This document shows positions 16,726-58,183 of a stretch of DNA of 64,000 nucleotides, in pieces (the first letter of the stretch is position 1; every line of letters begins with the position of its first letter). The notes under the pieces are model-generated. The model searched no databases and was not told the origin of the DNA. It saw only the letters and a program-made list of their open reading frames with translations. The position numbers and the translations under genes were made by a program. Source of the stretch: Pagrus major (lineage: Eukaryota; Chordata; Actinopteri; Spariformes; Sparidae); the NCBI RefSeq assembly GCF_040436345.1, contig NC_133223.1, positions 5,803,847 through 5,867,846 on the forward strand, given 5' to 3'.

Positions 16726-17860
16726 CTACAGTATGTTTGCCTCACAGGAGTCAGGCTGCAGTATCTTAAATGTAACTATGAGCTTAATTGATTTTCTTAA
16801 CCAGGGATAACAAAAGGCATAAACCACAGGATTTAGGCAGGAGTTAAAATAATACAAACATAAAACAAAGGCAGCAGATGAAGCATTGAGCAAGTTATCT
16901 TGACCTGTAAGAGCAACACAATAAAATGGGCAGAGACATATTAGAAACAAAACTACAACAACACCAAGAGTCCTGGCTGCTTTCATTTCAGATTTGTTTG
17001 CAGTTACTTTCCCTGATTGTGTGACAGCTGCAATATGAGACCGGATGGCACGAGCCTGAGACACAGCCACCACAAATACTCTCATATACAAAACAACAAT
17101 AACAGTAATGGGAACAATGAAGGAAAAAGTGAGATCTGCAAGTCCAGCAATGTAGTTAATGAAAAATAAACACTCTCCAATGCAGGAGTGATACCTGCCT
17201 GGTTCTTTCAATATATCCTTCAGGATCAGACTTTGAAAAATTACAGAGCATATCCAACACAGACAAACACACACCTGAACTCTTTTTTGTGTGATTTCAC
17301 TGGAGTAATGCAGAGGATGACAAATAGCCACATAGCGGTCAACAGATATGAGCACCATGGTTCCTACTGAGGCAGAGGAAATAACATAATCTACATACTG
17401 ATACAGAGAACACATGAGGTCACCAAGGAACCAGCAGCCGTCTATGAACATTATTTGAACGAACATAAGGGGGCCAATGAAGAAATCTGTGACAGCCAGA
17501 GAGAGGAGGAGGAGGTTGGTGGGAGTGTGGAGCTGCCTGGAGAGGAAGAACAGCATGAATTTATCATTATCATATCAATTTTTAGACAACAGCAGATACA
17601 ACGATCATACAATACTTTTTTATTCATTTATTTATTTTTACTTTATTTTTGTCTATGTATCAGTTTAATAAATTAATGAATCACTACTTGAAGTGGGAGA
17701 TGGAGATGATGACCAGCAGGTTAAGAGCTGCAGTGAGCAGAGCGATGAAGGACAGCAGAATGTAAATCAGCATGGTCTCAAAGTGAGGACGTATTGGCTT
17801 CCTGCAGGAGCTGTTGAGGAGTTGTGGAAAGCAGAGTTCAGTTCCCTCCAAGGTCTCCAT
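16726..17860 (-). CDS. taar: TAAR gene 1 (two exons, 327 aa)
   Basis: This is a G-protein-coupled amine receptor of the trace amine-associated family, which in fish is expressed mainly in olfactory neurons. Exon 1 (17688-17860) carries NSS glycosylation, the N-terminal Cys and TM1. Exon 2 (16726-17536) carries TM2-TM7. The intron (17537-17687) is GT-AG and phase 2, and joining restores HFKQLHTPTN, the usual TAAR TM1-TM2 loop. Key residues are Asp2.50 (D75), Cys3.25 (C100), Asp3.32 (D107), DRY (R125), Asp5.42 (D192) and NPVVY (P294). Both acidic anchors are present, as in diamine receptors such as zebrafish TAAR13c. Trp6.48 is replaced by Leu. I chose METLEG as the start because gene 4 starts there. 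An in-frame ATG 20 codons upstream (17920) is possible. The ligand is inferred, not known. Confidence 0.93.
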
Positions 17861-18330
17861 CACCAGAGAGAGGAGAACCTGCTGAGCTCTGGCAGCTTTT
17901 TGACCAAAGCTTTCCGTCATACAACTAATTTATCACTATCCTTCCAGCCCAGCCCTCCTTCCTCCTCACCTCTGCTGCTTTGTTCCTCTCCATAGAGATT
18001 GAAGTATTAGGCCTTCTTTGTTCATCCTCCTCAATGTTGGTGACTTTGGTTTATGTTTATCTCCACCTTTGGCCATCTGCCAGATGTCACAGGTCAAAGT
18101 TGGCTGAGCTCAAGCCTTAAATGTTGCTCTCTGTGGGAGTACATTTTTGCTCTAATCTTGTGCACTTGAGATTATCCCAGCTGCTAGAAATCCCATGAAC
18201 TTGTTTCTGGAAATGTATGTAAAATTATCCCAAAACACCTATCCCAGTCTAGCCCAAAGTAAATACAAAGCTGCTGGTGAACCATTTGGAGTACAGACAT
18301 GGTTTGGGGCTCTTTTGAAAGGTTATTAAG
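17861..18330 (-). promoter_or_regulatory. Shared 5' flank of the TAAR units
   Basis: About 450 bp upstream of the coding start is nearly the same in genes 1, 2 (28170-28500), 3 (32306-32800) and 5 (58184-58660). It includes a run around CATCTGCCAGATGTCACAGG with two E-box cores and the TGACCT half-site next to it. It probably holds the promoter and 5' UTR. The similarity may only reflect recent duplication. Confidence 0.35.
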
Positions 18331-18438
18331 ATGATTTTGTGCTGGGTTAGAAGAACCTAAATTACTGCTTAATTTTTTTTAAATACAAAATGAGCCTGCA
18401 GATGACCTGTAATGGCCTCTGTCAGCTGGAAGACACAA

Positions 18439-19990
18439 TGGGCCCTATTTAGACAGTCTATGGCGGCAGTCTAAGGCGCAGCCCGCTAGTGCGTTTAGGA
18501 CGTGTCCAAGTTCATTTTGCAAGTTGAACAACGGATAATCTGCAAGCATGGCGCATAGAGGTGGTTTTTCATGTGAATTACTCATGGGTGTGTTTTTTTG
18601 GCAGAAATAATTCAAACCAATCTGAGTGTCATCTCCCATTACCTTTAAGAGCCAGGTGCACCAGGGCCTGACATATTAAACAGTAGTACTTGTCTTCACT
18701 GAGGGAAAGGGATTCCTTGCCATTTCACAATCATCTGTCCCATCAACAACTCTGTTTGACTGCATATGAAAAAATACACTGATATTTAACTGAGGAGGAG
18801 GAGAAGTGCAAGTCTCGCAATTGAATTGGCTCTAGTTTTAAGTGAAACCACTGCAGGACAGATGCTTCCTCTAAAATGTGTCATTTATCCAATGGCTGTG
18901 AAGAAAGGAGGGACGGCTGTCATCCCCGGTCTGTGTCAGCAGCTGTCAAACTGCACAGTCAAGTTAACCGGTCACTGTCTCCACTGTCCTGCCCCCGCAA
19001 TGAGGAAAACTGAGTGAAAGGGATGCAGATTTTGGCAGAATATAATGGAAACTATTACAAAACACGACAAAGCAGCTACAACAGAGACTGGGAGACTACA
19101 ATTTTCACCAAGTTTTTTGCAGACTTTGCCAGAGTTATTTCTCAATTTCACACGGATACGACCTGAAGCAACACAGTATCTGCTAGTCTCATAAGAAACA
19201 TGTGGCTCAAAAAGATATGAGCCAATCTATGAAAACATTCATCCTGAACCTCAAAGACGACTGCCAGACAGATAAGGTAACAGCAGCTGAAATAACCAGC
19301 ATTTACCACACTGCAGCACTCTCAATCATACAGGTCAGCAGACTGTGGTTGTAAGCTAGCAACCGTCATTTTCCCAGACTCGGAGATTGCAAAACAAATG
19401 TCATGTGGTCCAACAAAATCAGCAGCTGTAGTTACAGATGTGGTTCCTCCGTGCAGAGTTGTTTGAGACAATTAAAAACACCAATGGTTCCCCCACGAAG
19501 TGACAGAAACACACACGCAATTTTTTTAGTGGTTCCAGATGCTTCTAAAATATAAACAGGGCTGCTTAAAATAAAATAATTGTTAAGTCCTTCACATGGT
19601 AAATAAAGGTCTTACCTGTATAGTCCTATTCTGTGCTACTAAATCAACCAGAAGGTAAAGCATAGATGTTATGAGCTACCAGGCAGAATAGAAATGTCTA
19701 TTTTTTAAAGTTAGATAGACAATATATCAAAATTTTTAGACTACGTCCATACATTGGTGACGTGTCCCACATTGTCCCACACAAACATACCCTTTGTCCC
19801 ACATTTGGCTTCTTGGGATATGGTCACCCTAGCCTGACCACACCTCATTTTCAGCCCAACACGCCAGGGGCGCACAGGTGGGCGCATCTACTTTTTATAC
19901 AATGTGGGCGCTGGGCAAGAAAATGACAGCTGTGTCAGTCTGAAACTAGCATTTACCGCTTTGCGCTGAGCATAAGATAGAATGGGTCCA
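18439..19990. mobile_element. Non-autonomous hAT-like repeat, copy B, with internal insertion
   Basis: The left end GGGCCCTATTTAGAC and the right end ATAAGATAGAATGGGTCC are imperfect inverted repeats. Compared with the copy at 58728-59813 this one has about 1 kb of unrelated sequence at roughly 18812-19832, ending GGGATATGGTCACCCT, a common end of fish DNA transposons. The continuing sequence to 20590 is shared with the other TAAR flanks. Confidence 0.5.
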
Positions 19991-20689
19991 CATTATGTAA
20001 TCTTACATGGTCCAAATTCAATTTATTAACAATACACTCAACACTTGTTTTTTCTGAGGAAATATCGGGCACTTGGCAAAACAATGCTATTGCATGACCT
20101 CAAAATACCCCATATAACCTAAACAGAGTAACACGGGCAAAAACTCATTATAGTTCTTGATTTCCGTATTTACTCTACCTTTGTGCATATAAAATAGTCA
20201 AAAAAGTGTTTAAAGCCTATTAAAAGAAAAAATGCATAAAACTACATAAACTTTAAATTTATAGCTTTAAAAACTGAAATAAACTGGTGTCTGCAAGGAG
20301 TTTTTTGACAGATAAAAGCATGAACAGGCAATTGTGATCGCAATTTTTTGCCACTTCGACAGCATTTCCTCATGGAATACTGTGTGTTTGGACATAATAT
20401 GTTGCTGAAATGGATGTACTGGACATTTGGGAATAAGAGAAAACTCTTTTTGTTTGCAGCTGCAGCTGCTGGGTTGAATGATGAAGCCTCACAGGGGGTG
20501 TTTTTTTTAGGGGTGTTAGTGAGTAGCTTAAGGTGCGTTAGTGGCCTGAGATGACCCAAACTTGGCTCTCTAATTTCCCTGACCATTAAGTTACATCCTT
20601 GCCTTAATCTTTTTGCAACCGGGTTATCCCAGCTGGTAGAAATCTCATAAACAGCACTGACTTCTTTGATTCAATTTCAGGAAGTCTAG

Positions 20690-23493
20690 TCTTATGGTCT
20701 GTTTACCCTTCCTGGTTTTCCTATTAAGGAGCCTGAAAAAGGCATCTTGTACATTCACGATAGGAATGTAGGCTGTGCCCCGTACCACCGGCACCAGGGC
20801 AGGAGAAGCAAGCAGTCCTGCTGGCAGGCCAGAGTCTAATGGCTCAAACAATACAGTGCTGCCGGAGTACTGTTCCGAGCATGTGGCCACAACGATCTTC
20901 ATCACACCGCCTGGGATACGACAAGCCCTTTTGCCACAAACTTTGACCTTCCCTGTGCTCTGTTCAGCCTTAACGCTGGCTTGATGGCACTTTTGCAGGG
21001 CCTGCATGACAAGCTTGGGGGCCTCAGACACCACCGGCAGGTTGAACAAAGCCAGGCCATGATGCCCAAACAACATTCTGTAGCAGCCTGGCAACCCCTT
21101 ACCACAAGGGGGGGGGGGGCATCACAAGGGACACGGGCCCCATCACACTCCCTAGCAATGTGACCTGGTTGCTGGCATCGCCTACAGATTATGGGACCGC
21201 GAGAAGTTACTCGGCCATGCTGCTGAGGGCCCTGCAGACAGGAGATGCTCCGAGTCAGTTGATTCAACTGCTCTTGCTGTAACTTTAGCATTTCCCTAAA
21301 CTCACGCAGCTCAGAGGCTTGTGGGGAACCAACACCTCCCGGGCTACTACCCTGAACCATGCACTGAGCACCAAAGACAGAAGGGACAGAATGACTCCGA
21401 CCCCTAACATCCCCGGGTAAGCCCTCTCGTTCCCACCTGATCGCCTCACTCCTAACCTCAAGTAAGGTAGCTGTAGGCTGCCAGCACACATACTGCTTCA
21501 GTTCACGATGAAGGGCTCCATCCAGCACATGCTCCACAAACTGGTCACGCAACAAAACCGCTGCGTTGGGTATGCCACTGGGTGCACGCTGCTTCACAGA
21601 TGTCATGAGACCTATCAACACAATTGAAAACTCTAACAGTCTCTCTCTCTTGCTGCCGTCGAGAGAATAAGGCATCTTGTAAAGCTACATAGGACTCTGC
21701 ACATCCATATAGCTCCTGTAGCACCTCTTTGATCTTACCTGGATCTGCACGCTCTCCACTGGGGCGGTACTTAATCTCCTCACGTGCCTCCCCCTCTAGG
21801 TGGTCAAATAAGAAGAATGCCTGATCGGATTGAGACAAGTGGCGTGCTCTCATACAGGCTTGCACCTCCTCCAGCCACTCAGTTTACCCTATCCTTGACT
21901 TTCCCCTAAATGTGGGACATTTTCTGTCTCGGGGCACAAAAATCAGTCGCTCCATTAAAGGAGCACTGGCGGTTGAAGAAGCAGCGGGTGTAAAAGGGCG
22001 CTGTACTAGGGCCAGGCACAGCCGCAACCTGTTTCTGTCTCAGCCTCTCGTTATCCGCTCTTAGCTGAGCTACTACTTCCCTCAGTTCCTGCAACTCCAC
22101 CTCCGTTACTAAACCTGTACCAGCTAAGGCTTTCCTACCGTGAAGATGAGACCAGGGAAAAAGGGAGAAGGAGGGCGGGCTCCTCCATAGGACTCTTCTC
22201 AGATCCAAGAAACCAACTGCTACTTTGCCTCAGAAGAAAAACACAGGTCAGACACTGACACTTAAAATAGTAACACTGTCACAAAAAAATGAACAAAAAC
22301 AGCAACAAACAACCAAAAAAAAGAAAACAGAACATGCGTCTCTGCTCTCAAATTGCAAATCCTGCCAATAACGCCAGATTGTGGCAGCACGAAGAGCATA
22401 CTTTGGGCAGCACTTGATTAAGAATGAATTTCACGCCAAACAACGCCACACTGGGGGTTTCACCTAGAGACCCTTTTTTTAAAGGATTATTTTTCAACCA
22501 AAGAAGGCACTCAGGTCCGTTTTACAAGTGAGGCAGACACAGCATTTCTGGTTACAAAAAAAAAAAGTTATTTATTAATTACATTTCAAAAATCTTTAAA
22601 ACTCCAATGTTCACTCACTGGGGCAAAAAGGGGAGCCCATCAGGGCTGAGACTTACTGGGGCAGATGTGTCCAAAACAAGGGGGATTCCAGGAACACCAC
22701 ACGTGAAGTAAATGAAAGTGAAACAAAATCAACCCAAAAAGTGCTAACACGAGAGGGACACAATTCGGCCATGGCAACGCTGAAATAAGACCTGGATGAA
22801 GGAGCAGAAGCTAGTGCTTAGCCAGCTGTAGTGAGCAGCCAGGAGCCAGGCAGACAGTGTTAGAGCACCGCGACAGCAAACTGCAAATAAAAGTCTGGAG
22901 GTGAAGCAGTGCGAAGCCAAGCAATGAGACGAAGCAATAGCAATGAAGCAAAGCAGCAGAGTTGCAAGGCGAAGCAGCGAGGAAACGCAGTGAGGCAACG
23001 CAGCAGTGACTTCCTGCAGAGAGGTAAGTGGTTGCTGTGCTGCTGACACAGGTGTCTTTACCCTACAATAAAAGAACAGATATGAGCAACTTACAAATGA
23101 CTGGAGGAGGAAGCTAAGGTCACTGTGCTACATACTGGTCAGGAAATCCTGGTCGGCACGGCGTGGAGCGAAGCAATCGGCTACACGAGGGCGAGCGGCA
23201 CACAGCGAACGGCACACATTGAGTGGTGAGCAGCGTGCAGCCAGCAGCAACACCCAAGCGAGCCTCTGAAATAAAATAACCAGAATGAACAACTGGATGG
23301 ACAGCGTGAGACCAGACTGCAGTCTCTGCTGCCAGCCTACCTGCCACAAAGCGAAAGAGGAAGTGGAGGGCATCAGGAAGTGATGTGACCCAGGATCCTC
23401 CAAGCAAGAGGACAACCAGGTGCTCTCTCACAGCGATTGGCTGGGAAGAGCCACACAGCTGAAACCCACCATACACAACTTCATACTGCTACA
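20690..23493 (-). mobile_element. Ty3/Gypsy-type fossil: LTR, leader, gag, part of pol
   Basis: Reading on the minus strand, the LTR at 23493-22380 (1,114 bp) has ends TGTAGCAGTATGAAG and CTTCGTGCTGCCACA, which are imperfect inverses. Three bases on is a TGGCGTTATTGGCAGG primer-site-like leader. A gag follows with a capsid-like FDHLEGEAREEIKYRP (about 21790) and a CCHC knuckle CRRCQQPGHIARECDG (about 21150). A protease-proximal pol region reaches about 20690. No second LTR is seen. It is broken. It belongs to the same family as the gag at 43554-44100 (same FDHLEGEA motif and near-identical leader). Confidence 0.75.
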
Positions 23494-27010: not shown

Positions 27011-28169
27011 CTACAGTATGTTCACCTCACAGGAGTCAGGCTGCAGTATCTTAAATGTAACTATGAGCTTAATTGATTTTCTAAACCAAGTATAAAACAG
27101 GGCATATATTACAGGGTTTAGGCAGGAGTTAGAACTGTACATGTATATTACAAAGGCAGCAGATGAAGCATTGAGCAAGTTATCTTGGCCTGTAAGAGCA
27201 ACACAATAATATGGGCAGAGACATATTAGAAACACAACTACAACAACACCAAGAGTCCTGGCTGCTTTCATTTCAGATTTCTTTGCAGTTACTTTCCCTG
27301 ATTGTGTGACAGCTGCAATATGAGACCGCATGGCACGAGCCTGAGACACAGCCACCACAAATACTCTCATATACAAAACAACAATAACAGTAATGGGAAC
27401 AATGAAGGAAAAAGTGAGATCTGCAAGTCCAGCAATGTAGTTAATGAAAAATATACACTCTCCAATGCAGGAGTGATACCTGCCTGGTTCTTTCATTATA
27501 TCCTTCAGGATCAGACTTTGAAAAATTACAGAGCATATCCAACACAGACAAACACACACCTGAACTCTTTTTTGTGTGATTTCACTGGAGTAATGCAGAG
27601 GATGACATATAGCCACATAGCGGTCAACAGATACGAGCACCATGGTTCCTACTGAAGCAGAGGCAATAACATATGCTAGATACTGATACAGAGTACACAT
27701 GAGGTCACCAAGGAACCAGCAGCCGTCTATGAGCATAATTGGAAAAAACATGAAGAAGCCAACGAAGAAATCTGAGACAGCCAGAGAGAGGAGGATAATG
27801 TTGGTGGGGGTGTGGAGCTGCCTGGAGAGGAAGAACAGCAATATATTCATCAATATTTATAGCATCCATTACCATTGAGATAACAATAACAATAGCAATA
27901 AGATCACTATTTCTTGGTTTAATATCAGGCAATAATTTTTATCACTATTTATTAGTGTCATATATTAGTGATAATTATTGCCTGATATTAAACTACTTGA
28001 AGTGGGAGATAGAGATGATGACCAGCAGGTTAAGAGCTGCAGTGAGCAGAGAGATGAAGGACAGAAGAATGTAAATCAGCATGGTCTCAAAGTGAGGACG
28101 TATTGGCTTCCTGCAGGAGCTGTTGAGGAGTTGTGGAAAGCAGAGGTCAGTTCCCTCCAAGGTCTCCAT
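27011..28169 (-). CDS. taar: TAAR gene 2 (two exons, 327 aa)
   Basis: Olfactory-type amine receptor. Exon 1 is 27997-28169 and exon 2 is 27011-27821. The 175-bp GT-AG intron restores HFKQLHTPTN. Seven hydrophobic segments, DRY and NPVIY are intact, and both ECL2 cysteines are present. At position 3.32 (residue 107) the classical Asp is Ala (QYLAYVIAS), while Asp5.42 (D192) is kept. By analogy with fish TAARs studied experimentally, amine contact would be through TM5. Position 7.43 is Ser. It is closest to gene 3, but a patch of TM2 (FFMFFPIM) differs sharply. The intron contains a hairpin starting 3 bases after the donor dinucleotide. The coding frame is undamaged. The start choice is as in gene 1. 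Confidence 0.92.
27917..27993. repeat. Hairpin-forming inverted repeat in the TAAR gene 2 intron
   Basis: GTTTAATATCAGGCAATAAT at 27917 is matched by its reverse complement ending at 27993. The arms pair for about 28 bp with a 3-nt bulge around a loop of about 18 nt. The gene 3 intron has a diverged left arm but no matching right arm. Confidence 0.9.
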
Positions 28170-31149: not shown

Positions 31150-32305
31150 CTACAGTATGTTCACCTCACAGGAGTCAGGCTGCAGTATCTTAAATGTAAC
31201 TATGAGCTTAATTGATTTTCTAAACCAAGTATAAAACAGGGCATATATTACAGGGTTTAGGCAGGAGTTAAAACTGTACATGCATATTACAAAGGCAGCA
31301 GATGAAGCATTGAGCAAGTTATCTTGGCCTGTAAGAGCAACACAATAATATGGGCAGAGACATATTAGAAACACAACTACAACAACACCAAGAGTCCTGG
31401 CTGCTTTCATTTCAGATTTCTTTGCAGTTACTTTCCCTGATTGTGTGACAGCTGCAATATGAGACCGCATGGCACGAGCCTGAGACACAGCCACCACAAA
31501 TACTCTCATATACAAAACAACAATAACAGTAATGGGAACAATGAAGGAAAAAGTGAGATCTGCAAGTCCAGCAATGTAGTTAATGAAAAATATACACTCT
31601 CCAATGCAGGAGTGATACCTGCCTGGTTCTTTCATTATATCCTTCAGGATCAGACTTTGAACAAATACAGAGCATATCCAACACAGACAAACACACACCT
31701 GAACTCTTTTTTGTGTGATTTCACTGGAGTAATGCAGAGGATGACAAATAGCCACATAGCGGTCAACAGATACGAGCACCATGGTTCCTACTGAAGCAGA
31801 GGCAATAACATATGCTAGATACTGATACAGAGTACACATGAGGTCACCAAGGAACCAGCAGCCATCTATGAGGACAATTTGAAAGAACGTGAGGAGACCC
31901 ACGAAGAAATCCGAGACAGCCAGAGAGAGGAGGATAATGTTGGTGGGGGTGTGGAGCTGCCTGGAGAGGAAGAACAGCAATATATTCATCAATAATTATC
32001 ATATCAATCATCATTCAGATAACAGCAAATCTAGCACATGACTGAACTACAATCAGATTACTATTTGTCATAGTTTAATATCAGGAAATACTTTTTATTA
32101 CTATACATTATCATCATATATTAATGAATGTCTACTTGAAGTGGGAGATAGAGATGATGACCAGCAGGTTAAGAGCTGCAGTGAGCAGAGAGATGAAGGA
32201 CAGCAGAATGTAAATCAGCATGGTCTCAAAGTGAGGACGTATTGGCTTCCTGCAGGAGCTGTTGAGTTGTGGAAAGCAGAGTTCAGTTCCCTCCAAGGTC
32301 TCCAT
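31150..32305 (-). CDS. taar: TAAR gene 3 (two exons, 326 aa)
   Basis: Olfactory-type amine receptor with exon 1 at 32136-32305 and exon 2 at 31150-31960, joined over a 175-bp GT-AG intron. It has one Leu fewer in the N-terminus than genes 1, 2 and 5 (PQLNSS). Asp3.32 is Ala (residue 106) and Asp5.42 (D191) is kept. Position 7.43 is Ser. It differs from gene 2 by only about nine residues in exon 2: five in eight positions of TM2 (LLTFFQIV), two in TM4 (VFVQ) and two in TM7 (ICMYSF). This is a recent tandem duplicate of gene 2, with both 3' flanks matching from about 30900 / 26560. The frame is intact. Confidence 0.92.
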
Positions 32306-37863: not shown

Positions 37864-39105
37864 TTACAGTATTTTAGCATCACAAGAGTCATGCTGCAGT
37901 ATCTTAAGTGTTACAGTGAGTTTAATAGATTTTCTAAACCAGGGGTAAAATAAGGCATAGATCACAGGGTTCACACAGGAGTTAAAATACAGCAGCCACA
38001 CTATAATGGGTGAAGATGAACTACTGTCTTCAATATCCTGGCCTACAAGGGATGGGAAGTAATATGGACAGAAACATATTAGAAACACAATCACTAAAAC
38101 ACCAAGAGTCTTGGCTGCTTTCATCTCAGATTTCTTAGCAGTTACACACACTGAACTCTGCCGTGTGACAGCTGCGATGTGGGACCTCATAGCTTGAGCC
38201 TGAGACACAGCCACCACAAATACTCTCATATACAGAACTATGATGACAGTAATGGGGGCAACAAAGGTAAAGACAAAGTCAAAAGCTCCTGTGATCTGGT
38301 TGAGGACCACTACACACTCTCCATAGCAGGAATTGTGTGAATCAGGATGTCTCAGAAAGTCCTTTAAAATTACACTGTTATAGAGAATAGAGCATATCCA
38401 ACACAGACAAACACAGACTTTTGTTCTGTCCAGAGTAACTCTGGTGGTGTAATGTAGAGGGTCACAAATAGCAAAATAACGATCGATTGATATGAGCACC
38501 ATATTTCCAACTGAAGAAGAGGTAATGATAAAATCTGTAACATAATACAGAGCACACATGAGGTCACCCAGGAACCAGCAAGTGTCTGTCAAAAGGATCT
38601 CAACCGGCATCAGCAGGAGGCCCACAAGGAAGTCTGAGACAGCCAGGGAGACGATGAGAAGATTGGTGGGGGTGTGGAGCTGCCTGGGGAGGAAAAATCA
38701 TCATTAAATCACATTATCATCAACGATAGCTTGTTAGTTAATGCAGTAGCAGGAAGGGCATTCGTATGGATATGAATCTATTCTGGAGTGCCAGCTTAAA
38801 TTATTTTGTTACAACATTACATTTAAATATATATTTCTTTGTAAGAAACACAAATGGAACATTAACATTAAAAGAAGACATGCAGTTTTCATTCTGAAAA
38901 TTAATTATTTTGTGCTGAGCATTTATCTGTGCCTGAAGTGGGAGATGGAGATGATGACAAGCAGGTTGAGAGCTGCAGTGAGCAGAGAGATGAAGGACAG
39001 CAGAATGTTAGTCAGCATGGTCTCAGACTGAGATGGTGTGGGTTTCCTGCAGGAATTGTTGAGGAGGTCTGGAAAGCAGAGTTCAGCTCCTTTTGTAGTC
39101 TCCAT
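37864..39105 (-). CDS. taar: TAAR gene 4, divergent paralogue (two exons, 330 aa)
   Basis: Amine receptor with the same two-exon plan but clearly older divergence than its neighbours. Exon 1 (38933-39105) encodes METTKGAELCFPDLLNNS and TM1. Exon 2 (37864-38683) starts QLHTPTNLLIVSLAVSDFL. Both Asp3.32 (D108, YYVTDFIIT) and Asp5.42 (D193, GAFDFVF) are present, with Tyr7.43, which suggests classical and possibly diamine binding. Position 6.48 is Phe (CFCPYY). ICL3 has a short insertion (RQSSVCVTAKKSEM). The intron (38684-38932, 249 bp) ends in a normal AG, but at the donor position where the other copies have GT it reads AG|GCACAG, so a GC-AG intron is needed. METT is the only in-frame ATG upstream of TM1, which fixes the start. 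The frame is intact. Confidence 0.9.
38684..38932 (-). other. GC-AG intron of TAAR gene 4
   Basis: The donor dinucleotide is GC at 38932-38931 and the acceptor is CCCCAG ending at 38684. It is exactly homologous in position and phase to the GT-AG introns of the other four genes. No usable GT occurs within the next 40 bases. Confidence 0.75.
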
Positions 39106-40830: not shown

Positions 40831-40984
40831 ATATTGAACTTTTCACTAAAGTCACTTAAAGTAAAGTTTAAGATCTGTTTGTCTGTGGTGGATGTTTTCT
40901 GCTATCTGTCACAATCTGATGTTGAAAGATTTGTGCAAAATGTGTGTACTTTTAAGTTATATGTCTAAAAGATGTAAGTCCACT

Positions 40985-46579: not shown

Positions 46580-49257
46580 GAGATAAATTCATAGTGTAAA
46601 TGAGAAAAATATTCATAATGACCTAAAGTTTGTGATGGGAGTAAATGTATTCATCTAATTTGCATATTGTGACGTCACCAGGTGGCAGCCATATTGGATT
46701 ACATAACTTTCAGTAAAACTGATTTTTGAACATATTTACACAAAAAAAAAAATATTTATATTGTCATCTCATCCTCAAAATAAAGGAACAGGAGTGTGAT
46801 TGGAGTAAATTTACTAATCTAATTCGAAAATCACCAGGTAAAATTCAGTAAAACGGAATTCTGAACATATTTACACAGTAGATTTTTTTTCATTTCATTT
46901 CATTTTTTCATAGATTTTTTTCATCCTCTCATCCTCAGAGTAAATGAACAGGAATCTGATAGGAGTAAATTTCCTAATCTAACTTGTATATCAACAGGTA
47001 AAATTCTATTTTTATAGTTTTTTTTTTTGTTTTGTTTTTTGTTTTTTTGGTCTTTTTTAGATTTTTTTTTGGGGGCGGGGACTTGAACTTATGTACATCT
47101 ATCAAAATGGCATTGTTTGGGTTTTTTCAGTGTGTGGTATCTTTTATTGCAAGGCACGGCACACAGACCTACTCCACACTGACTGCACCTGAACTGTGTC
47201 TGGCGTCGCCCCTTAGGACGGGTGCGATCTGAGCAAACTACGCAATCCGGACGATCATCAGCATTGCATCAGCATTGATCAGCATTGCGGAGCCAGTGAC
47301 GTTCAGTGAGCCGCTGTGGCATTTCTCCCCCTTCCACTGAAGGCCTTCCTCCCTTCTTGCCTTCCTTCTTGGAGTAACCCTCAAGTAAAGCAGTCACAAT
47401 GTCCTGGATGAAGGCCTTCAGTGGTTTGTGTGGGCCAGGACTACACCGACTGTAGATGATGTGGGCATTGACCACACTGATGCTAAGAACCGCGTTGATA
47501 ATGCGGTTGTACCATTTCCTGGATCGGTGTGGAAAGAGGTATGTTTTCATACGCTGATCAGCCGTATCAACTCCCCCCATAAAGGAGTTGTAACTGTCAA
47601 CGCACTCTGGTTTCTTGATGTCACGAAAACCAGTCACATTTGCTTTTGAACGTATACGTTTCTGAACGCATGTGTTCCCGTGAACTGATGTCAGCATGGT
47701 GAGACGCTTTGTGTCATGCCACGCACAAGCCAGCAATTTGCCATGCCGCATGAACACAGGCTCATCTCCCCTTTTGGAAGGCAACTGAGCTGGTTTCAGG
47801 CCCCGTGGCATCCCTCGCCTGTTGCAGTTCACTGTCCCACACAGTCCCGTTCCGTTAGCTGCTAACTCGTTAGCTAAGGCTGGCGATGTGTAGTAACTAT
47901 CCATATACACCTCATGCCCTTTTCCAACGTATGGAGCCATCAGCTTACGGACAATAAAATGGGTCACACCGAGATGATCATCCTCATCTGCTGTGTGTCC
48001 TGTATACATGGACCACTGTAAAACATAGCCTGAGCTAGCTTCACTCAGTACAAATGCCTTGTAGCCATATTTATCTGGTTTTTTGGGATTGTACAGTTTC
48101 AAGGTTGACCTCCCCTTGAATGCAATGGTCATTTCATCCAGGGAAAGTTCCTTGAGTGGACCATACATGGCTGAAAAACGGGGGATGACCATATCGAGTA
48201 CTGGACGCACTTTGAATAATTTGTCATAGCCTGGCTGACCCCTCTCAACTTGCTCATCATTATTTGCAAAGTGGAGGAAAGAAAGGATGATCTCAAATCT
48301 GTTCCTTGTCATCACTTTGCCAAAGCCAGGTGTGTAACACGGCCAAAATCCTGCCCAGTTGTCCTCAATCTCAGGTTTTTCAACAAGCCCCATGCACAAA
48401 TGAAGTGACATAAAGGCTTTCATCTCAGGGATGGTGACATCATACCAGCCATGATATCTGGAGTTTGGCTGAAGTTGGTGTGTGTCAATGTACTGGTGAG
48501 CATATCTGTTGGTTTCATTTGTGATGAGGTTCCAGAAATCCTCATCCAAAAACAGAGACAGGAATACACATGCACTAGCATCTGTGAGATCCTTGTCTCC
48601 ACGATACCCCACAGGCTCATCAAAGTCCCTGATCCATTTTTGGAACACCTCCTCACTTCTCAAATACTCCCAGCCATCATCATCATTTACAGCCCTATTT
48701 TGATGACCCCCTCTGCCGCCCCCACGTCCCCTCCTTGCCCGATTTCTCCCACGACCGCGGCGGAGAAAACTCTCGCCGTGATCAGTATGTGATGCTTGTG
48801 TGACAGTGTCTGCAGCTGCAGCATCGTCAGAGTCACTCGTCTCTGACGAGCGATCGTCATCAGACGGCAAATCGTCCCCTTCTGAATCGCGATCAGCAAA
48901 GATCTGTGCAAGCACCTCATCTGCACTGTAAAGTCCTCTGGGCATTTTGTTTTTATTGAAAAAATCGCTATCTGTCTCGCTATCTATCCAACACGCTCCT
49001 GTCACCGCACCGCTCCGCTACTCTCTCCTCTCCCACTCTCCCGCTCAGGCGCTCCCACTCCGACAGCGGGTGTCGGGTTTCAAACTTTTTTTTCTCGGAT
49101 ATTTTGCATAGAAACACACCCCCAAATGACGTCAGGATTGAAGCTGAATCTATTGGCTATCTATTGGTAGCAAGCAGTAACATTACATTTAAAGATATGG
49201 GCTGTTTTAATGAGCAATGTTGCCTGTCGCAATAATGCGACTTTGGCGCCTAGAGGG
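46498..49257 (-). mobile_element. piggyBac transposon, structurally complete (2,760 bp)
   Basis: The terminal repeats CCCTCTAGGCGCCA are perfect inverses, and TTAA flanks both ends (46494-46497, 49258-49261). It contains one transposase ORF on the minus strand. Non-coding DNA at 46580-47088 is AT-rich with T and A runs. It inserted into the Harbinger at 45394-50897. Confidence 0.97.
47269..49005 (-). CDS. piggyBac transposase (578 aa, C-terminal zinc domain cut off)
   Basis: This is a DDD transposase that cuts and pastes at TTAA. The N-terminus is acidic (SDSD repeats, then an R/G-rich RRGRGRNRARRGRGGG). The catalytic core has D290 (SLDEMTIAFKG), D369 (VYMDSYYTSP) and D480 (MGGVDTADQ), all present. 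The ORF stops after LRNADQC. Past the stop, the same frame continues for 59 codons encoding a cysteine-rich domain (DCVVCSD, FRCSQCGVGLC, PCNKRYH) that ends at 47089. The stop lies in a 21-nt expansion made of AATGCTGAT repeats (about 47262-47290). So the zinc-binding domain used for end recognition is lost by a small in-frame repeat expansion, and the rest looks intact. It is related to PGBD4-like proteins. Confidence 0.93.
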   Translation of the reverse strand: MTGACWIDSETDSDFFNKNKMPRGLYSADEVLAQIFADRDSEGDDLPSDDDRSSETSDSDDAAAADTVTQASHTDHGESFLRRGRGRNRARRGRGGGRGGHQNRAVNDDDGWEYLRSEEVFQKWIRDFDEPVGYRGDKDLTDASACVFLSLFLDEDFWNLITNETNRYAHQYIDTHQLQPNSRYHGWYDVTIPEMKAFMSLHLCMGLVEKPEIEDNWAGFWPCYTPGFGKVMTRNRFEIILSFLHFANNDEQVERGQPGYDKLFKVRPVLDMVIPRFSAMYGPLKELSLDEMTIAFKGRSTLKLYNPKKPDKYGYKAFVLSEASSGYVLQWSMYTGHTADEDDHLGVTHFIVRKLMAPYVGKGHEVYMDSYYTSPALANELAANGTGLCGTVNCNRRGMPRGLKPAQLPSKRGDEPVFMRHGKLLACAWHDTKRLTMLTSVHGNTCVQKRIRSKANVTGFRDIKKPECVDSYNSFMGGVDTADQRMKTYLFPHRSRKWYNRIINAVLSISVVNAHIIYSRCSPGPHKPLKAFIQDIVTALLEGYSKKEGKKGGRPSVEGGEMPQRLTERHWLRNADQC

Positions 49258-49285: not shown

Positions 49286-50577
49286 TTACATTGTTGAAAT
49301 CAGATGCTGCCGGGCCCATATCGCTTCCCGGGGTGGGTCGAGGTTGACGGGTCCAGCATCCGGTTCCTCTGGTGGGGGGATGTGTTCTGGCAGTGGTATG
49401 CCATGGCGGTGTGCCACGTTGTGCAGGACACCACAGGCCAGCACAATGCGGCACACCTTCTCTGGTGTGTACAGCAACACCCCCCCCCCGACCTGTCCAG
49501 ACAGCGCCAGCGCCCCTTCAGTTGGCCAATTGCCCTCTCCACCACTGCCCGAGTTCGGGAATGGAGGTCGTTGTACCTCCTCTTGTTCTGTGCCGGGGTT
49601 AGTGAGAGGGGTCAACAGCCACGTAGCCACGGTCCCCTGGAGTCAAATGAAGGAAGTATACAACATGTGAAATACTGCAGAAGTGCGCCGTGGCTACTGC
49701 AGTATGACATTTCCAACTTTACGCACGCGTTTATTGACACATACTGAACACAAGGAGACAATAAAGGGCTTGTTAGATAGCTCTGCTGCTCTATTTTCAC
49801 CAGGGGAAAACAAATGCACATATTTGAATGCACGTGCCCAAATGGGCATTGTGCTGGTTTACATTCGGGGCGCAATTAAACAGATACATTTACTCACCGA
49901 GAAGCCACCCATCGCGCACCGTGCCAGCCTCCAGCCTGTTACCAACCATGCTATTGGTAAGAATGAACGAGTCATGCGTTGAACCAGGCCACCTTGCCAC
50001 GATGTTGGTGAGCTGCATTTGCGCGTCACATTATTTGAACATTAATTGAATGAAAATGTTTCCTGTTCACAAAAACAAATTCATCCTGTGATGGCGCTTT
50101 TATAGCAACATGTGTGCAGTCAATAGCTCCGATTACATTAGGGAAACCAGCTCCTGCTGCAAATTGCGCTTTAATGTTGGCCTGTTCAACAACATTGTAT
50201 GGGAATTTGATGTACCTGGATGACATTCTTATGATCCCGTCCCACACAGCTGGCATGGCTCGGCTCAGAGTGGACTGGTGCACTCCTGAATGGTCGACCA
50301 GTTCCCTGTGGAAGGCTCCTGTTGCCAGGAACCCCAGAGTGGTCGGCACCTGTGTGGGCACGAACAACCCCTGGCTCCTGGCTGTGTTCCGTTCTAGGGC
50401 CGGCCGCAGCTCTGCGCACAGCTCCAGTAACAATGGCCTCGGAAACCTAAAACGACTCATGAGCCAGTTGTCGTCATTCGCCAACAGATCCTCCCGTTCT
50501 CTGAACACCCTCTCACGTCTGACATTACCATTTGCGATGTCTTCTAACAAGGCCAAGGCTGCCATTGTTAATGCCAT
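49286..50577 (-). pseudogene. Harbinger DDE transposase (two exons, frameshifted)
   Basis: Exon 1 (50577 to about 49898) starts MALTMAALALLEDIANGNVR and includes RFPRPLLLELCAELRP, the first catalytic Asp in IGAIDCTHVAIKAP, and PGSTHDSFIL with the second. A one-base loss near 50026 breaks the frame between them. A GT-AG intron (49637-49897) leads to exon 2 (49286-49636), with WLLTPLTNP, the Glu motif ERAIGQLKGRWRCL and CGVLHNVAHRHGI. Exon 2 is also out of frame at two or more places, including a G run near 49490. It is related to host HARBI1, but the terminal repeats show it is a transposon gene. Confidence 0.85.
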
Positions 50578-52590
50578 TTTTTCATCACTTTGCGCAGGCT
50601 TTTATATCCATCCATATGATTGCAAACACGTGTGTGTTAATTGTCCATTAATGTGTCTCCGATGTGCACATTACTCTGTGGACTAATTGTTTTCACATGA
50701 TTAACAATTTCCCAGCATCACCTCAAAGTGTCGCCAAAGGAACAATGGCTGTAGAAACGTGCGTACGCCAGCCATGAAGCTGGCGTGGGGCACCGCATAT
50801 TTCCACGGTCATTTCACTTTTGATACATCTGACTGTTGGCGTGGAAAATGACGTATGCCACGTTTTTGTGCGTACGCAACATTGATACACGAGGCCCCAG
50901 GACTGGGCAAATGAGTTGAATCTGTTTTTTAACAGATTCGACTGTGCCACCTCTCCCTCCCCCACTCACCAGAGCTCAGACCCTACTGTGCTGTCACACC
51001 CCCCCCCCGCCTCTCCCTCCAGTACACCTCCGACACCCCCACACCACGCCACCCCCCTCCACTTCCTCCCTGAATGACCGACACACCCCACCCCCGACCC
51101 ATCTCAACAGGAATCACTCCAGGGTCCCATCAACACCCCCAGCCTCCTCATAACAGCAGACCAAGTGAGGAAGGTGCTGAGGAAGACCAGGTGAGGAAGG
51201 CTACTGGCCCTGATGGCATCAACTCCAGACTGCTGAAGGACTGTGCAGATCAGCTCTGTGGAGTTCTCCTGCACATCTTCAACTTGAGCCTCAGTCTGGA
51301 GAGAGTTCCTCTCCTGTGGAAAACATCCTGCGTGGTTCCTGTCCTCAAGACTGCGCACCCCAGGGAGCCCAACCACTTCAGGCCAGTGGCTTTGACCTTG
51401 CACCTCATGAAGACCATGGAGAGGATTGTTCTCGCCCACCTTCGACACCTTGTGAACAGTGAAATGGACCCCCTGCAGTTTGCTTATTGACCTGGCATTG
51501 GTGTGGATGACGCTGTCATCTACCTGCTGCACAGGTCACTTTCACACCTGGAGAGCACCGGGAGCACTGTGAGAGTTTTTTGACTTCTCCAGTGCTTTCA
51601 ACACAATTCAACCATCACTGCTCAGGGGGAAGCTGGAAGGAGCTGGAGTCGACTGCCACCTGGCTGCATGGACCACCGACTACCTCACAAACAGACCGCA
51701 GTATGTGAGGCTCCGTGACTGTGTGTCTGATGTGGTAGTCTACACCACGGGAGCTCCACAGGGTACAGTGCTCTCTCCTTTCCTCTTCACACTCCAACAT
51801 CTGACTTCAGTTACAACACGGACAGCTGCCACCTCCAGAAGTTCTCCGATGACACAGCCATCGTTGCACGTGTGGTACAGGTACAGGAAGTACAGGAAGG
51901 TCATCACCAACTTTGTCGCCTGGTGTGAACTGAACCACCTGCGCATCAACGCCAGTAAGACAAAGGAGGTGGTGATCGATTTCAGGAGAAAGGCTCCTCA
52001 AACCGCACTGGTGAACATCCAGGGTTTGGACATTGAGATTGTAGAGGAGTACAAATACCTGGGTGTTCACATAAACAATAAACTGGACTGGACACAAAAC
52101 ACTGATGTCCTGTACAAGAAGGGCCAAAGTCGTCTCCATCTGTTGAGGAGACTGAGGTCCTTTGGTGTGTGCAGGTCACTGCTAAAAACTTTTTATGACT
52201 CTGTGGTAGCATCAGTGGTCTTCTACGCTGTGGTCTCCTGGGGCTGTGGAAGCTCAGTGAGAGACAGAAAGAGACTCAATAAGCTGGTTAAAAGGGCTGG
52301 CTCAGTCTCGGACTGTCCTCTGGACTCCATTGAGGAGGTGGGTGAGAGGAGGATGTTAGCCAAGCTGACATTGATTATGGACAACCCCTCTCACCCCCTA
52401 CATGAGACTGTGGGGGCCCTAAGCAGCTCCTTCAGTAACAGACTGCTCCATCCACAGTATAAAACTGAACGCTACCGCAGGTCGTTCATTCCATCTGCAG
52501 TCAGACTGTACAACAACAAAAACTCTTAATGTAGCACCATAAGCACCTTAAACACCTCCATATCTTGCACTATTACCACTTCTACCCAGT

Positions 52591-53045: not shown

Positions 53046-54066
53046 TAAGGCTGCACAAAAACTGACATTGCGATTTATTATTTTCTTGCGATATATATTG
53101 CGATATTAAAAAAATAGAAGAATTTTCACCAGATGACTTGAATAGCTCTATTTGGAAAGAATTTGGTTGATTCACAATGACACCATTGTATTCATATAAT
53201 ACCCTTCTATTAATCCAAGCTAACGTCAATGATCTAATGTCATACTCTAAAATAGGGGGGTTCATCTGTAATTGCAGCCGTTTTTGAATTTATTTTGAAA
53301 TACGTGCTTTTATTTTTAAATGAGATAAACTGGAAGTGGTATCTGTTAGCTCCGTACACTTCACTTGTTAGTTCGGTTTTCTTTTTTATCACTCCATGCT
53401 TCTTGGTGTTTGCTACAGCTGTGTGCACGTGGTTTTATGAGAAGTTTATGTTGAAGAAACAGATGTTTTGACTGTGAAGATTGCCTCTGGGGGATGACTC
53501 TGCCGTTGGTTGAGAAGCAGGCTAAAGTGGTCAGCATTACCCTATGTATTCTTTATCGGTATTAGCTACAGTGCTAAGCAATGCTATTTCTGTAATGATT
53601 GCAATAGCTGATGTTGTCTTTTATTTTGTTTACCTGAACTTTAGTTCTACGGTGTTAATAAACATCTGTGAAGGAAACTGGAGTCTAGTATCCAATCAAT
53701 GGGCGGCATATCATCTGTTCATCTGATCAAAATAGAGCGTTAGGGATGGAAGTCTCTTTAGCCAGCCTGTTGTGCAGTGCATTATAGGTGGAATAAGATG
53801 ATGCACAGAAGAGAAAAAAAATGCAACAGTGACACTTTTGACACTGTAGTGGACTTAGCTTTTAAGCTAGAGATTTCAATGAATCCGTTATTACCAAATA
53901 CACCATGGTGGCTTACTGGGAAAGGGGTGAAACGTCGCTCCAAAGTTGAACTGTTTTACCGCGAGTGAACTTTGAAGGGGGGACTTTAAATATCACCTGT
54001 CCTGCAATGTGACTTTTGCGCATGCGTCGTAATGGCGATGTTCAAACGATATATCGTGCAGCCCTA
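53046..54066. mobile_element. Non-autonomous hAT-like element
   Basis: The ends TAAGGCTGCAC and GTGCAGCCCTA are inverse with one mismatch. They are flanked by an 8-bp duplication with one mismatch, CTCCACTC (53038-53045) and CTCTACTC (54067-54074). GATATAT/GCGATA runs near both ends are typical of fish hAT elements with GGGCTGCACGAT termini. No transposase frame is seen inside. Confidence 0.8.
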
Positions 54067-54439
54067 CTCTACTCCCTTTGCTGGTTATATCAGGGGTGCA
54101 AATATTTCATGTTTATTTTCATTAATGTTCAAGTTTTTTCAGAAATGAGTTTTTTCTGACAGTTTAATATCAATAGTAACTTTGCTATTTATGTTCTATA
54201 ACTAAAAGTTACTTTTTGTAAGTGTTTTTAGTGTGTCTGTTCAGAACATAGTGGCTTATGTTATGTTGGTAATTGTCATTTTTGTGCTGGTTTATAGTTG
54301 AACCATTATTGAGGTAGCTGTTACATTTCCTGACACCAGCTGTTTTATCCCTGTTGAAGCGCACTCTGCTGGACAAACTATGTCATTACACCAATTTTAA
54401 ATTACCCCAAACATATTTTTCTGCATTATAGTTTTTAAA

Positions 54440-54555
54440 TATAAGGTTTTCATATTGGTGCATATCGGACAATATTACGCCGATACCGATATATCTGTGA
54501 TAGGCTAATATCGGCTGATAAAATCGGCCTACCAATAAATCAGTCAGGCTCTACT
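54440..54555. repeat. Terminal piece of another hAT-like repeat
   Basis: GCCGATACCGATATATC, then ATCGGCTGATAAAATCGGCC and AGTCAGGCTCTA resemble the widespread fish repeats with GGTCGACCGAT-like ends. The other end was not located. Confidence 0.35.
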
Positions 54556-55584
54556 ATTTTGCACAATGTTCATTGTGTGTCCTTCAAGGAATTTAGATGG
54601 TAAAAAATTCCAAGGGGTCATGTAACTTAAAATGACCCTGCATGTAGTGTATTGTGAGAAACATGAGAAAACCCTGCCTGAATAAACTCAGTGTACTGCA
54701 TACAATTTAAAGGTGCATTTACTCATTACTTTAATACAGTTATAAAAAGACAATTGTAGTAGGGAGAGAAGGAAGATAACTGGATCAATTGGAATTGTAG
54801 AATTAGAAATGTCACAGTTATGGTTAAGGCGTCCTGCAACAATGTCCTTTGGGAGGTGTACATAGGTGTGTCAGGGCAGGGTGGTGCTCCAATTGGGCCA
54901 TTCCCCTGTTAAAAATTAACAAATCACCTACTGCTTGTCATAATCCCCAGTCCACACATGCTGAGCCGATACAGTAGACAGACTGCATGCCAAAGAAGTT
55001 TATGGCGGCTTACAGGCTGGACACACTGGATGCATGTGCAGCGCTGCTGTGTGGCGTTACCTCTCGTGTTGACATTGGATGCCTGAGACGTGCTTCTCAT
55101 GCACGTGTCAAGCGTGGCTGCTGCGTCGTGTCATCTAGAAATTCAGAGTCTTGCCTATTTTTACCGCGACACTCGCGCAGTTCTTGGCAAAAATCAACCT
55201 GAAAACGACCTAGACAGTCATGGACATCATACCAGCATTTTAAGACAGTTTTAATGTCTGTATGTGTAGAATATGTCACAGACATGAAGAGAATACACAC
55301 TACAGGTGAGGGGCAGTTATTTTCCTGTGTACTCTTTCTTTCACTCTCACTTTCTCTTCCTCGCTCCCTTTTGTTCCCCCTCCAGCTTTCTCACCTTTTC
55401 AAAATCACGTCATCATATTCATCAAAAATTATCAAAGGCAAACTCCATGTAAACAGATAGGGCAGGCAGGAGCTGTGCTGCAGCAGCTGCCACGCAGCCT
55501 TTGTGAACCCAAACACGCAAGTGAGCAGCAGCAGCTCTGTAACGCAGCAGCCAGGCAGTACACAGGAATCCAGTGTGCCCAGCC
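54556..55584. other. No gene seen
   Basis: There are short frames only. ACGTGCTTCTCATGCACGTGTC near 55089-55110 holds a small palindrome (GACACGTGCATGAG-type). No repeat family was recognised. Confidence 0.4.
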
Positions 55585-56210
55585 TGTTAGTGATTGGCCC
55601 ATTCTCTAGCCCTCCATTCCCAGCATCAACAGCCTTATCCCCAGTCTGGATTTTCCTATGCCATCAACCTCATCCATCTCACCTGTCATGGTGCCTGGTT
55701 GGCCAGAGCAAATATCATTATTGCCTTCAAATTTCTGCCCAGATTTCCTAAAGTTCTTTGAGGTGTTTTCTGGAAAGGTTCTTTCTATTTCGGTGTCCAT
55801 CTCACCTTTTGGTGCAAGAGCAGCCCAAAACAACTTAACAATCACCAATTTCCACATATCATTCACTTTCTGGATGACTTTCTCACTGTATCTCCTTATA
55901 CATTACAAATGTCCTCCTTGCCCTCCGATGTACCAAGCATCAGCTTCTCTCCCTGCTTGCACACCTAAATTCCGGGGACGGCCTTCCATTCCGAAACACC
56001 GCTGTTCCGAATCCGACTTTCAAGTTCCAATTACTTCCCAATAGGGTTAGGGTTGGGGTCAGGGGTTCCCCATAGCCTTTTCGGAATAGTGGGGTCTTTA
56101 GAAAAAATGGGAAACCCTGCCATTACGAAGAATGGAAGTCTATTTTCGGAACAGCAGGGTTTCGGAAAGGCGGGGTGTAACCCTAAATTTCACCATCATC
56201 CTTCAATGTC
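55585..56210 (+). mobile_element. DIRS/Ngaro-like fragment, second copy (fossil), with a MITE inside
   Basis: It matches 14800-15160 (TTAGTGATTGGCCCATTCTC, then AGCATCAACAGCCTTATCCC and GCAAGAGCAGCCCAAAACAA) and is shorter on the right. Compared with the other copy it keeps an extra segment at 55680-55800 and carries the 210-bp insert at 55972-56181. It is broken. Confidence 0.45.
55972..56181. mobile_element. 210-bp MITE with 8-bp target duplication
   Basis: CCTAAATT occurs on both sides (55964-55971 and 56182-56189) and only once at the empty site of the other copy (near 15135). The ends contain TTCCGAAACACC and the inverse-like GGTTTCGGAAAGG. The 8-bp duplication suggests a hAT-type origin. 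Confidence 0.75.
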
Positions 56211-56909
56211 GTTCCAAAGGAGGGGAGGAGAATGTGCACAGCCCCACCAGATGCATACAAAGGCCAACAACCCCAAGACCCATGGTTGATGTCCGCCATG
56301 ATCAAGTGGATCACTTCCCAGCTTTTCACAGACGAGGGAAGGTGCAGGCCATAAAAAATTAAATATATACAGGAAATGAGGGGAATTGTTCGTAGAGTTC
56401 CCAGCATTATGGAAAACCTGGACCCATAAAACTTTCTCCAGTGTTCAGTTGTGTATGCATCATTTGAGAAAATGAAATTGCTGTGTTGTTTTGTTTTTAT
56501 GTAATCTTCAGTGCACAAAAAGTTCAATATGTTCATCATGAAATGTTCCGTTTTTGTGTCACTTTTTTATGAGATTGCTTTGTTATGAGATTACTAAACT
56601 GGATTGGTAAAAATGAATAAAATCAACTTTAAAAGTGCTATGTGTAATGTAAATGACCAAGGAATACAACAATGTATAATTTATCTACATCAAATTGAAC
56701 ATTAATATGTTTATCATTTGGGCTCTGTTTATACCTTAATAGGGCAACGTATCCTTGGAGATACAACTCATAAGATCCAAAATACTGAATATATGTATAT
56801 TTTGAATGTGGAAATATTTTTCTTAGGGCCTACAGAGATGAGTGATGACATTAAATTATTTTTTGCGACTTAGTTTCCACTCCTGCCTGTTTTAGGGGTA
56901 GCATAAGCA
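56211..56909. other. No gene seen
   Basis: AT-rich spacer. TAAR unit homology (to the 3' flank of gene 1) starts at about 56910. Confidence 0.5.
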
Positions 56910-57015
56910 ATGTAAAGACAAACGTGATTCACAGCATTTAATTACTCTTCACCGTGACATGTACGTTTGTCTATTCATGCTCAGGGTCTCATTTCAGGCC
57001 CCATGCAGAGTGTCT

Positions 57016-58183
57016 CTACAGTATGTTTGCCTCACTGGAGTCAGGCTGCAGTATCTTAAATGTAACTATGAGCTTAATTGATTTTCTTAACCAGGGATAA
57101 CAAAAGGCATAAACCACAGGATTTAGACAGGAGTTAAAATCATACAACCAGAAAATAAAGGCAGCAGATGAAGCATTAAGCACACTATCTTGGCCTGTAA
57201 GAGCAACACAATAATATGGGCAGAGACATATTAGAAACAAAACTACAACAACACCAAGAGTCCTGGCTGCTTTCATTTCAGATTTCTTTGCAGTTACTTT
57301 CCCTGATTGTGTGACAGCTGCAATATGAGACCGCATGGCACGAGCCTGAGACACAGCCACCACAAATACTCTCATATACAAAACAACAATAACAGTAATG
57401 GGAACAATGAAGGAAAAAGTGAGATCTGCAAGTCCAGCAATGTAGTTAATGAAAAATATACACTCCCCAATGCAGGAGTGATACCTGCCTGGTTCTTTCA
57501 TTATATCCTTCAGGATCAGACTTTGAAAAATTACAGAGCATATCCAACACAGACAAACACACACCTGAACTCTTTTTTGTGTGATTTCACTGGAGTAATG
57601 CAGGGGATGACAAATAGCCACATAGCGGTCAACAGATATGAGCACCATGGTTCCTACTGAGGCAGAGGCAATAACATATGCTAGATACTGATACACAGTG
57701 CACATGAGGTCACCAAGGTACCAGCAGCCGTCTACGACGACAATTTGAAAGAACACAAGGAGACCAATGAAGAAATCTGAGACAGCCAGAGAGAGGAGGA
57801 GGAGGTTGGTGGGAGTGTGGAGCTGCCTGTAAAGGAAGAACAGCATGAATTTATCATTATTAATCATATCAATCATCATTCAGATAACAGATGATCGAGC
57901 ACATGACTGAAATACGATCAGATTACTATCAAAAAAATCTGATTGTCACAGTTTAAATGTCAATACTTTTTACTACTATTCATTAGTTTATTAAATTAAT
58001 GAATGTCTACTTGAAGTGGGAGATGGAGATGATGACCAGCAGGTTAAGAGCTGCAGTGAGCAGAGAGCTGAAGGAAAGCAGAATGTAAATCGGCATGGTC
58101 TCAAAGTGAGGACGTATTGGCTTCCTGCAGGAGCTGTTGAAGAGTTGTGGAAAGCAGAGTTCAGTTCCCTCCAAGGTCTCCAT
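57016..58183 (-). CDS. taar: TAAR gene 5 (two exons, 327 aa)
   Basis: Olfactory-type amine receptor, exon 1 at 58011-58183 and exon 2 at 57016-57826. The 184-bp GT-AG intron has acceptor TTTACAG. TM1-TM7, DRY and NPVVY are intact. Its 3' flank and TM7 end (NPVVYAFCYPWL) pair it with gene 1, but TM3 (TVYQYLAYVIAS) is of the gene 2/3 type with Ala3.32. Asp5.42 (D192) is kept. Uniquely, position 7.43 (residue 287) is Asp instead of Tyr or Ser (WLYDFNS), one base away from the gene 1 codon. Position 7.43 faces 3.32 in class A receptors, so this may be a replacement amine anchor. The start was chosen as in gene 1. The ligand is unknown. Confidence 0.93.

Follow-up and report, generated by a model that had tools for sequence, protein, structure and literature searches.

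The window analysed here is a 64,000-nucleotide stretch of the Pagrus major genome (C9:5803847-5867846, contig NC_133223.1; 786 Mb in 25 contigs), and it holds an array of five intact two-exon genes for trace amine-associated receptors (TAARs). All five lie on the minus strand with uninterrupted frames from ATG to stop (Table 1). Exon 1 runs to the end of transmembrane helix 1 (TM1), an intron of 151-249 bases follows, and exon 2 encodes TM2-TM7. Introns were GT-AG in four genes and had a GC donor in gene 4; the GT-AG reading splits codon 58. An initial annotation of the sequence delimited the array exactly, from the gene 1 stop at 16726 to the gene 5 ATG at 58183, and described its backbones as near-identical. 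That description holds for genes 1, 2, 3 and 5, which share 89.9-96.9% protein identity among themselves, and not for gene 4, a distant relative at 64.8-66.3% to these. Exon 2 of the four close genes lacks one TM2 codon present in gene 4, at a proline common to gene 4 and zebrafish TAAR13c that we take to be P2.59.

Binding-site residues were numbered by anchoring on R3.50, P5.50 and P7.50. Positions 3.32/5.42/7.43 read D/D/Y in genes 1 and 4, A/D/S in genes 2 and 3, and A/D/D in gene 5, identical to the triplets first reported. In an alignment of gene 4 with TAAR13c, positions 3.32 and 5.42 corresponded to chain residues 112 and 202 (counted by hand), and the register was the same when gene 5 was aligned with TAAR13d and TAAR13a. 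In TAAR13c these residues are Asp112 and Asp202, and D112A and D202A abolish cadaverine responses (PMC4695389). The solved-TAAR alignment thus bears out the initial assignment of 3.32 and 5.42, and its link to the zebrafish work was correct, the two-aspartate logic having been published there (Li et al. 2015, PMC4695389). Asp7.43 of gene 5 had been listed as well, but without the point that it adds another acid to the pocket.

Table 1. Exons of the five TAAR genes in window coordinates. Codon coordinates were calculated from exon starts, and those of gene 5 at 3.32 and 7.43 were also checked on the sequence.
Feature	Positions	Strand	Details
Gene 1 exon 2 (TM2-TM7)	16726..17536	-	D3.32 17391-17389, D5.42 17136-17134, Y7.43 16851-16849
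Gene 1 exon 1 (N-terminus and TM1)	17688..17860	-	GT-AG intron 17687-17537
Gene 2 exon 2	27011..27821	-	A3.32 27676-27674, D5.42 27421-27419, S7.43 27136-27134
Gene 2 exon 1	27997..28169	-	GT-AG intron 27996-27822
Gene 3 exon 2	31150..31960	-	A3.32 31815-31813, D5.42 31560-31558, S7.43 31275-31273
Gene 3 exon 1 (in frame, one codon shorter)	32136..32305	-	GT-AG intron 32135-31961
Gene 4 exon 2 (more distant subfamily)	37864..38683	-	D3.32 38535-38533, D5.42 38280-38278, Y7.43 37989-37987
Gene 4 exon 1	38933..39105	-	GC-AG intron 38932-38684
Gene 5 exon 2	57016..57826	-	A3.32 57681-57679, D5.42 57426-57424, D7.43 57141-57139
Gene 5 exon 1	58011..58183	-	GT-AG intron 58010-57827

All five genes matched the Pfam 7tm_1 family. 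For gene 5, the 15 top-ranking distinct sequences with solved structures were all TAARs, ahead of the beta-1 adrenergic and histamine H2 receptors, and all 15 solved-structure sequences found with gene 4 at E <= 1e-35 were TAARs; genes 1-3 were tied to the family through their alignment with the other window genes. NCBIfam, a prokaryotic library, gave zero matches for genes 5 and 4. The array, tree and conversion results below all come from this one genome. Our main set comprised 50 long matches that were 51% identical or more, made up of the 5 window genes and 45 fetched copies, which carry L numbers, and our comparison set comprised 15 more distant matches (10 of the 23 long matches in a cluster on C10, all 4 long matches on C22 and 1 on C1). 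We excluded four short matches, three on C9 and one on C18, whose identity was 50% or higher. The sets were drawn from 143 scored matches out of 810 candidates, and genome-wide counts are therefore lower bounds.

At least 31 of the 50 copies lie on C9 within 0.48 Mb (5.76-6.24 Mb), one of which, L019, has an in-frame stop. A quick tree of this genome's copies separated the 50 from the 15 others, which include a TAAR13-like cluster on C10, along a fully supported branch. D5.42, the mark of clade III TAARs, was present in all five window genes and in 49 of the 50 related copies. The loss of D3.32 that is usual, though not universal, in that clade has occurred in genes 2, 3 and 5; genes 1 and 4 keep the residue. 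Sequence comparison points to the array as part of a tandem cluster of teleost clade III-like olfactory TAARs. Membership of the window genes in TAAR13 was rejected because the C10 copies are far closer to TAAR13e (E = 1.4e-114 for L055 and 9.6e-102 for L054) than the window genes are to their best matches (gene 5 to TAAR1 at 5.1e-52 and TAAR13d at 3.6e-50; gene 4 to TAAR13c at 3.3e-55 and TAAR1 at 2.5e-54). Six of the ten genes fetched from the C10 cluster at 1.13-1.21 Mb (L054, L058, L059, L065, L066 and L067) have Glu3.32 and either Ser or Gly in position 5.42, and three others have D3.32 and D5.42. TAARs with Glu3.32 were without a known ligand as of 2015 (PMC4695389).

Residue states varied widely at 3.32 and hardly at all at 5.42. 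D3.32 occurred in 14 of the 50 copies, and 13 of the 49 copies with D5.42 had both aspartates; this pattern is not due to chance. Position 7.43 was readable in 48 copies and was Asp in five (gene 5, L009, L010, L011 and L012). Genes 1, 2, 3 and 5 belong with L009-L019 to a subfamily of 15 genes, 14 with D5.42, whose states at the three positions were DDY (gene 1, L013, L015), ADS (genes 2 and 3, L016, L017, and L019 past its stop), ADD (gene 5, L011, L012), ADY (L014), ADN (L018), DDD (L009) and DGD (L010). L010 (L010:48-857, minus strand of the locus) is the sole copy of the 50 that lacks D5.42, having Gly there; its frame is open and it keeps D3.32 and D7.43. In exon 2, L009 and L010 each differ from gene 5 at 5 of the 269 residues. 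Outside the subfamily, D3.32 was found in gene 4, L022, L024-L028, L030 and L033, and S, T, N, G or P also occurred at the position elsewhere in this genome.

The Asp/Ala state at 3.32 has several origins. On a DNA tree of the 15 subfamily genes built without the codons around 3.32, the state needed four changes, and over 1000 bootstrap trees it needed three in 156, four in 810 and five in 34. A single clade of D3.32 genes was rejected by the approximately unbiased (AU) test (p-AU 3.6e-7), with the group being defined by the residue itself. The claim that anchor residues are reshuffled across the array is therefore stronger than the window alone could show. Among the 50 copies, nine changes between D and not-D were required on a quick protein tree from which the columns around 3.32 had been removed. 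For Asp7.43, a single clade was not rejected (p-AU 0.10); two changes were needed in 907 of 1000 bootstrap trees, one in 88 and three in 5.

The genes show a mosaic pattern along their length. Among the six pairs formed by genes 1, 2, 3 and 5, mean silent divergence (pS) was 0.040 in exon 1, 0.147 in TM2-3, 0.016 in codons 123-256 and 0.157 from the end of TM6 to the C-terminus. The core of codons 123-256 is thus about ninefold less diverged at silent sites than TM2-3 or TM7, and the introns of the same genes differ by 0.19-0.39 per base. The silent sites of the core are free to change, since the same core stands at a pS of 0.553 from gene 4. Fourteen subfamily genes (L019 excluded) gave the same profile, with silent divergence of 0.133 in TM2-3, 0.138 in TM6-7 and 0.020-0.033 between. 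The nearest relative also shifts along a gene, as gene 1 is closest to gene 3 upstream and to gene 5 in the last coding part. A longest-identical-run test on 89 informative sites gave P<0.05 in 32 and P<0.01 in 16 of 105 pairs, which are not independent of each other; we preferred it to the all-site version (38/105 pairs), which private core variants may inflate. A test modelled on the pairwise homoplasy index (PHI-like) gave P = 0.001 with windows of 4 sites, 0.017 with 8 and 0.07 with 12. The cause of the mosaic is probably gene conversion, which gives the best fit to these data.

Several close pairs of copies had clustered differences. Gene 5 and L009 had 0/185 differences in the intron, 10/480 upstream and 14/810 in exon 2, and five of these 14 fell in codons 106-112, the 21 bases around 3.32, with four more in codons 272-274. 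L014 and L015 differed at ten sites, four of them inside the 21 bases at 3.32. Among six chosen pairs, clustering of differences had P values of 0.015 (gene 5/L009), 0.023 (gene 5/L010), 0.033 (L014/L015), 0.022 (L009/L010, not at 3.32), 0.0004 (genes 2/3, in TM2) and 0.98 (gene 1/L013). All five D genes of the subfamily use GAT and share the same 12 bases, GTAGATTATGTT (GTA-GAT-TAT-GTT), and nine of the ten A genes use GCA in the form GTA/CTA-GCA-TAT, the tenth using GCT, so that 14 of the 15 genes have either GAT or GCA.

These observations bear on whether exchange is needed at all. Under the published model of gain followed by loss, D3.32 could have been lost or regained independently in tandem copies by recurrent point mutation. 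The loss is common in teleosts (84/91 zebrafish D5.42 receptors, PMC4695389), and the S, T, N, G or P found at 3.32 elsewhere in this genome argues that the position mutates by itself; D in L022 and N in L023 are one base apart. Mixed combinations at 3.31, 3.32 and 3.36 fit this account too. However, one base suffices to turn Asp into Ala (GAT to GCT), yet nearly all A codons carry the two-base change to GCA; silent divergence in the core is far below that of both flanks and the introns; and gene 5 and L009 accumulated their five differences in 21 bases despite identical introns. Recurrent mutation without conversion is therefore an unlikely explanation in our judgement. Simple retention, in which gene 1, L009, L010, L013 and L015 keep an old D3.32 without any transfer, draws on the wide occurrence of D3.32 outside the subfamily, but from the tree count it needs about five separate losses, nearly all of them to the same two-base codon, and one of them in gene 5 following a duplication recent enough that gene 5 and L009 still have equal introns. 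We regard retention as very improbable.

A further alternative accepts the conversion and denies its functional consequence: segments are shuffled neutrally, and Asp or Ala at 3.32 barely affects function since D5.42 carries the binding. Pairwise ratios of nonsynonymous to silent divergence (dN/dS) ranged from 0.33 to 0.83 and were below 1 in all ten window-gene pairs, as neutral shuffling would allow, and the retention of D5.42 in 49/50 copies is likewise compatible with it. Against it stand the concentration of differences in TM2-3 and TM7 and the zebrafish experiments, in which responses to two-charge ligands were weakened or lost when either aspartate of TAAR13a, 13d, 13e or TAAR14d was mutated (PMC4695389). 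A purely neutral mosaic seems to us possible, though we doubt it. Of 30 cavity positions 10 were variable, as were 23 of the 159 remaining TM sites, an enrichment with P = 0.017 in a single test that used a list of cavity positions attributed to Surgand et al. 2006.

We favour the explanation, at a probability of roughly 0.7, that this is a clade III-like array with a nearly fixed D5.42 and variable TM2-3 and TM7 segments, shaped by gene conversion. The pocket of the gene 5 subfamily would consist of the near-fixed TM5 acid and these variable segments. Conversion between copies would homogenise exon 1, its immediate upstream sequence and the TM3-TM6 core. It would also have moved a short TM3 segment, in its D3.32 or A3.32 version, between backbones. 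D5.42 would hold an amine from TM5, and D3.32, where present, could hold a second charge.

Several points weigh against this explanation. The recombination tests are mixed, as the PHI-like signal fades at the 12-site window, and among the four close window genes alone only one of six pairs reached P<0.05 over the whole gene and two of six over the coding part. The P values for pairwise clustering are nominal, and clustering is absent in gene 1/L013. Almost every combination of 3.31, 3.32 and 3.36 occurs, which recurrent mutation could also give. Pairwise dN/dS among the ten window-gene pairs gave no support for positive selection, the cavity enrichment is modest, and positive selection does not follow from it. 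W6.48, the toggle residue of canonical aminergic G protein-coupled receptors (GPCRs), is replaced in all five window genes (L in genes 1, 2, 3 and 5; F in gene 4), and the activation rules of aminergic receptors may not carry over.

Published mutagenesis of the zebrafish relatives allows ligands to be predicted from the residue states. Copies that have D3.32 together with D5.42 (gene 1, gene 4, L009, L013, L015 and others) are predicted to hold two-charge amines between TM3 and TM5. For A3.32/D5.42 copies that are neutral at 7.43 (genes 2 and 3), the prediction is single-amine binding through TM5. More speculatively, D7.43 in gene 5, L009, L010, L011 and L012 could provide one more amine anchor adjoining 3.32, the second or the third of its receptor, since in other TAARs this position is a Tyr that either stabilises D3.32 or contacts polyamines. 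A bolder and tentative version, which we hold to be possible rather than probable, is that conversion combines anchors at 3.32, 5.42 and 7.43, with D7.43 replacing or adding to D3.32, and that ADD, DDD and DGD receptors detect different multi-charge amines by geometries undescribed for TAARs. If the favoured reading is true, ligand class would change by the swapping of a few pocket codons between neighbours, and not only by slow mutation after duplication, while the rest of the receptor is kept uniform. Gene 5 (ADD), L009 (DDD) and L010 (DGD) form a triad in which the three pocket acids can be separated with few background changes, which makes the published two-step model of the amine site directly testable. 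The initial annotation called the array a natural experiment. This stands in that both states occur in close copies, and is weakened by the distance of gene 4 and by the mixed states implied for zebrafish TAAR14s; the tightest contrast, that of the triad, lies mostly outside the window.

Other features of the locus concern its duplication and its surroundings. L022 and L023 (C9:5.937 and 6.178 Mb) are sister copies. Taken with the distant pairs L026/L027 and L030/L033, they suggest that the array may have undergone a segmental duplication. Mobile-element frames surround the receptors in the window at 193-3096, 11504-12823, 20902-21675, 47269-49005, 50026-50577, 51705-52529 and 61757-64000, and contain reverse transcriptases, a zinc knuckle, a DDE_Tnp_1_7 transposase (presumably piggyBac-type), a sub-threshold DDE_Tnp_4 match and a SCAN/integrase frame. 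A candidate degraded plus-strand TAAR near 40877 was rejected (tblastn E 0.6; in the one frame inspected only 21 residues were receptor-like).

Gene structure and sequence constraint can be set beside those of other teleosts. Most TAARs of cichlids, stickleback and medaka, and not those of zebrafish, are reported to have the two-exon layout, with one intron after TM1 at codons ~55-57 (Azzouzi et al. 2015, PMC4415300). Our genes share this layout, but the intron is given there as phase 0 and here it splits codon 58. The same paper gives mean orthologue dN/dS values of 0.425 and 0.514, and the term 'gene conversion' does not appear in its text. Gene conversion has been tested for duplicated genes in general (PMC4256280). 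Selection and repertoire size in TAARs are the subject of PMC4786312, PMC6895882 and PMC10869828, the first of which lists 3.32 and 5.42 among positively selected sites in mammalian TAAR7 and TAAR8. PMC8890504 discusses whether the two aspartates arose by convergence or by a shared gain.

The closest known systems are the receptors whose amine sites have been dissected. As in the zebrafish clade III receptors TAAR13 and TAAR14, D5.42 would be the second amine site here, and as in zebrafish there are receptors with D3.32 and D5.42, the combination of its two-charge receptors, alongside a majority with D5.42 alone (PMC4695389). Only TAAR14c and TAAR14d are named there among the TAAR14s as keeping both aspartates, which implies mixed 3.32 states in that group and is a precedent for the array. 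D3.32 is kept in 7/91 zebrafish D5.42 receptors as against 13/49 in our analysed set. The zebrafish paper proposes gain followed by loss; exchange between tandem copies is not raised in the passages of it that we draw on, and position 7.43, which is Asp in some copies here, goes unmentioned in the same text. We found no report of Asp7.43 in TAARs or amine GPCRs in the open-licence literature, the only literature searched, and copies with D7.43, including the DDD and DGD forms, are apparently unreported. The nearest parallel is the polyamine site of sea lamprey TAAR365 and mouse TAAR9, where 7.43 supports D3.32 or joins in amine recognition (Jia et al. 2021, PMC8546428). The residue in those receptors is Tyr7.43, in contrast to the Asp7.43 of five of the 48 readable copies here.

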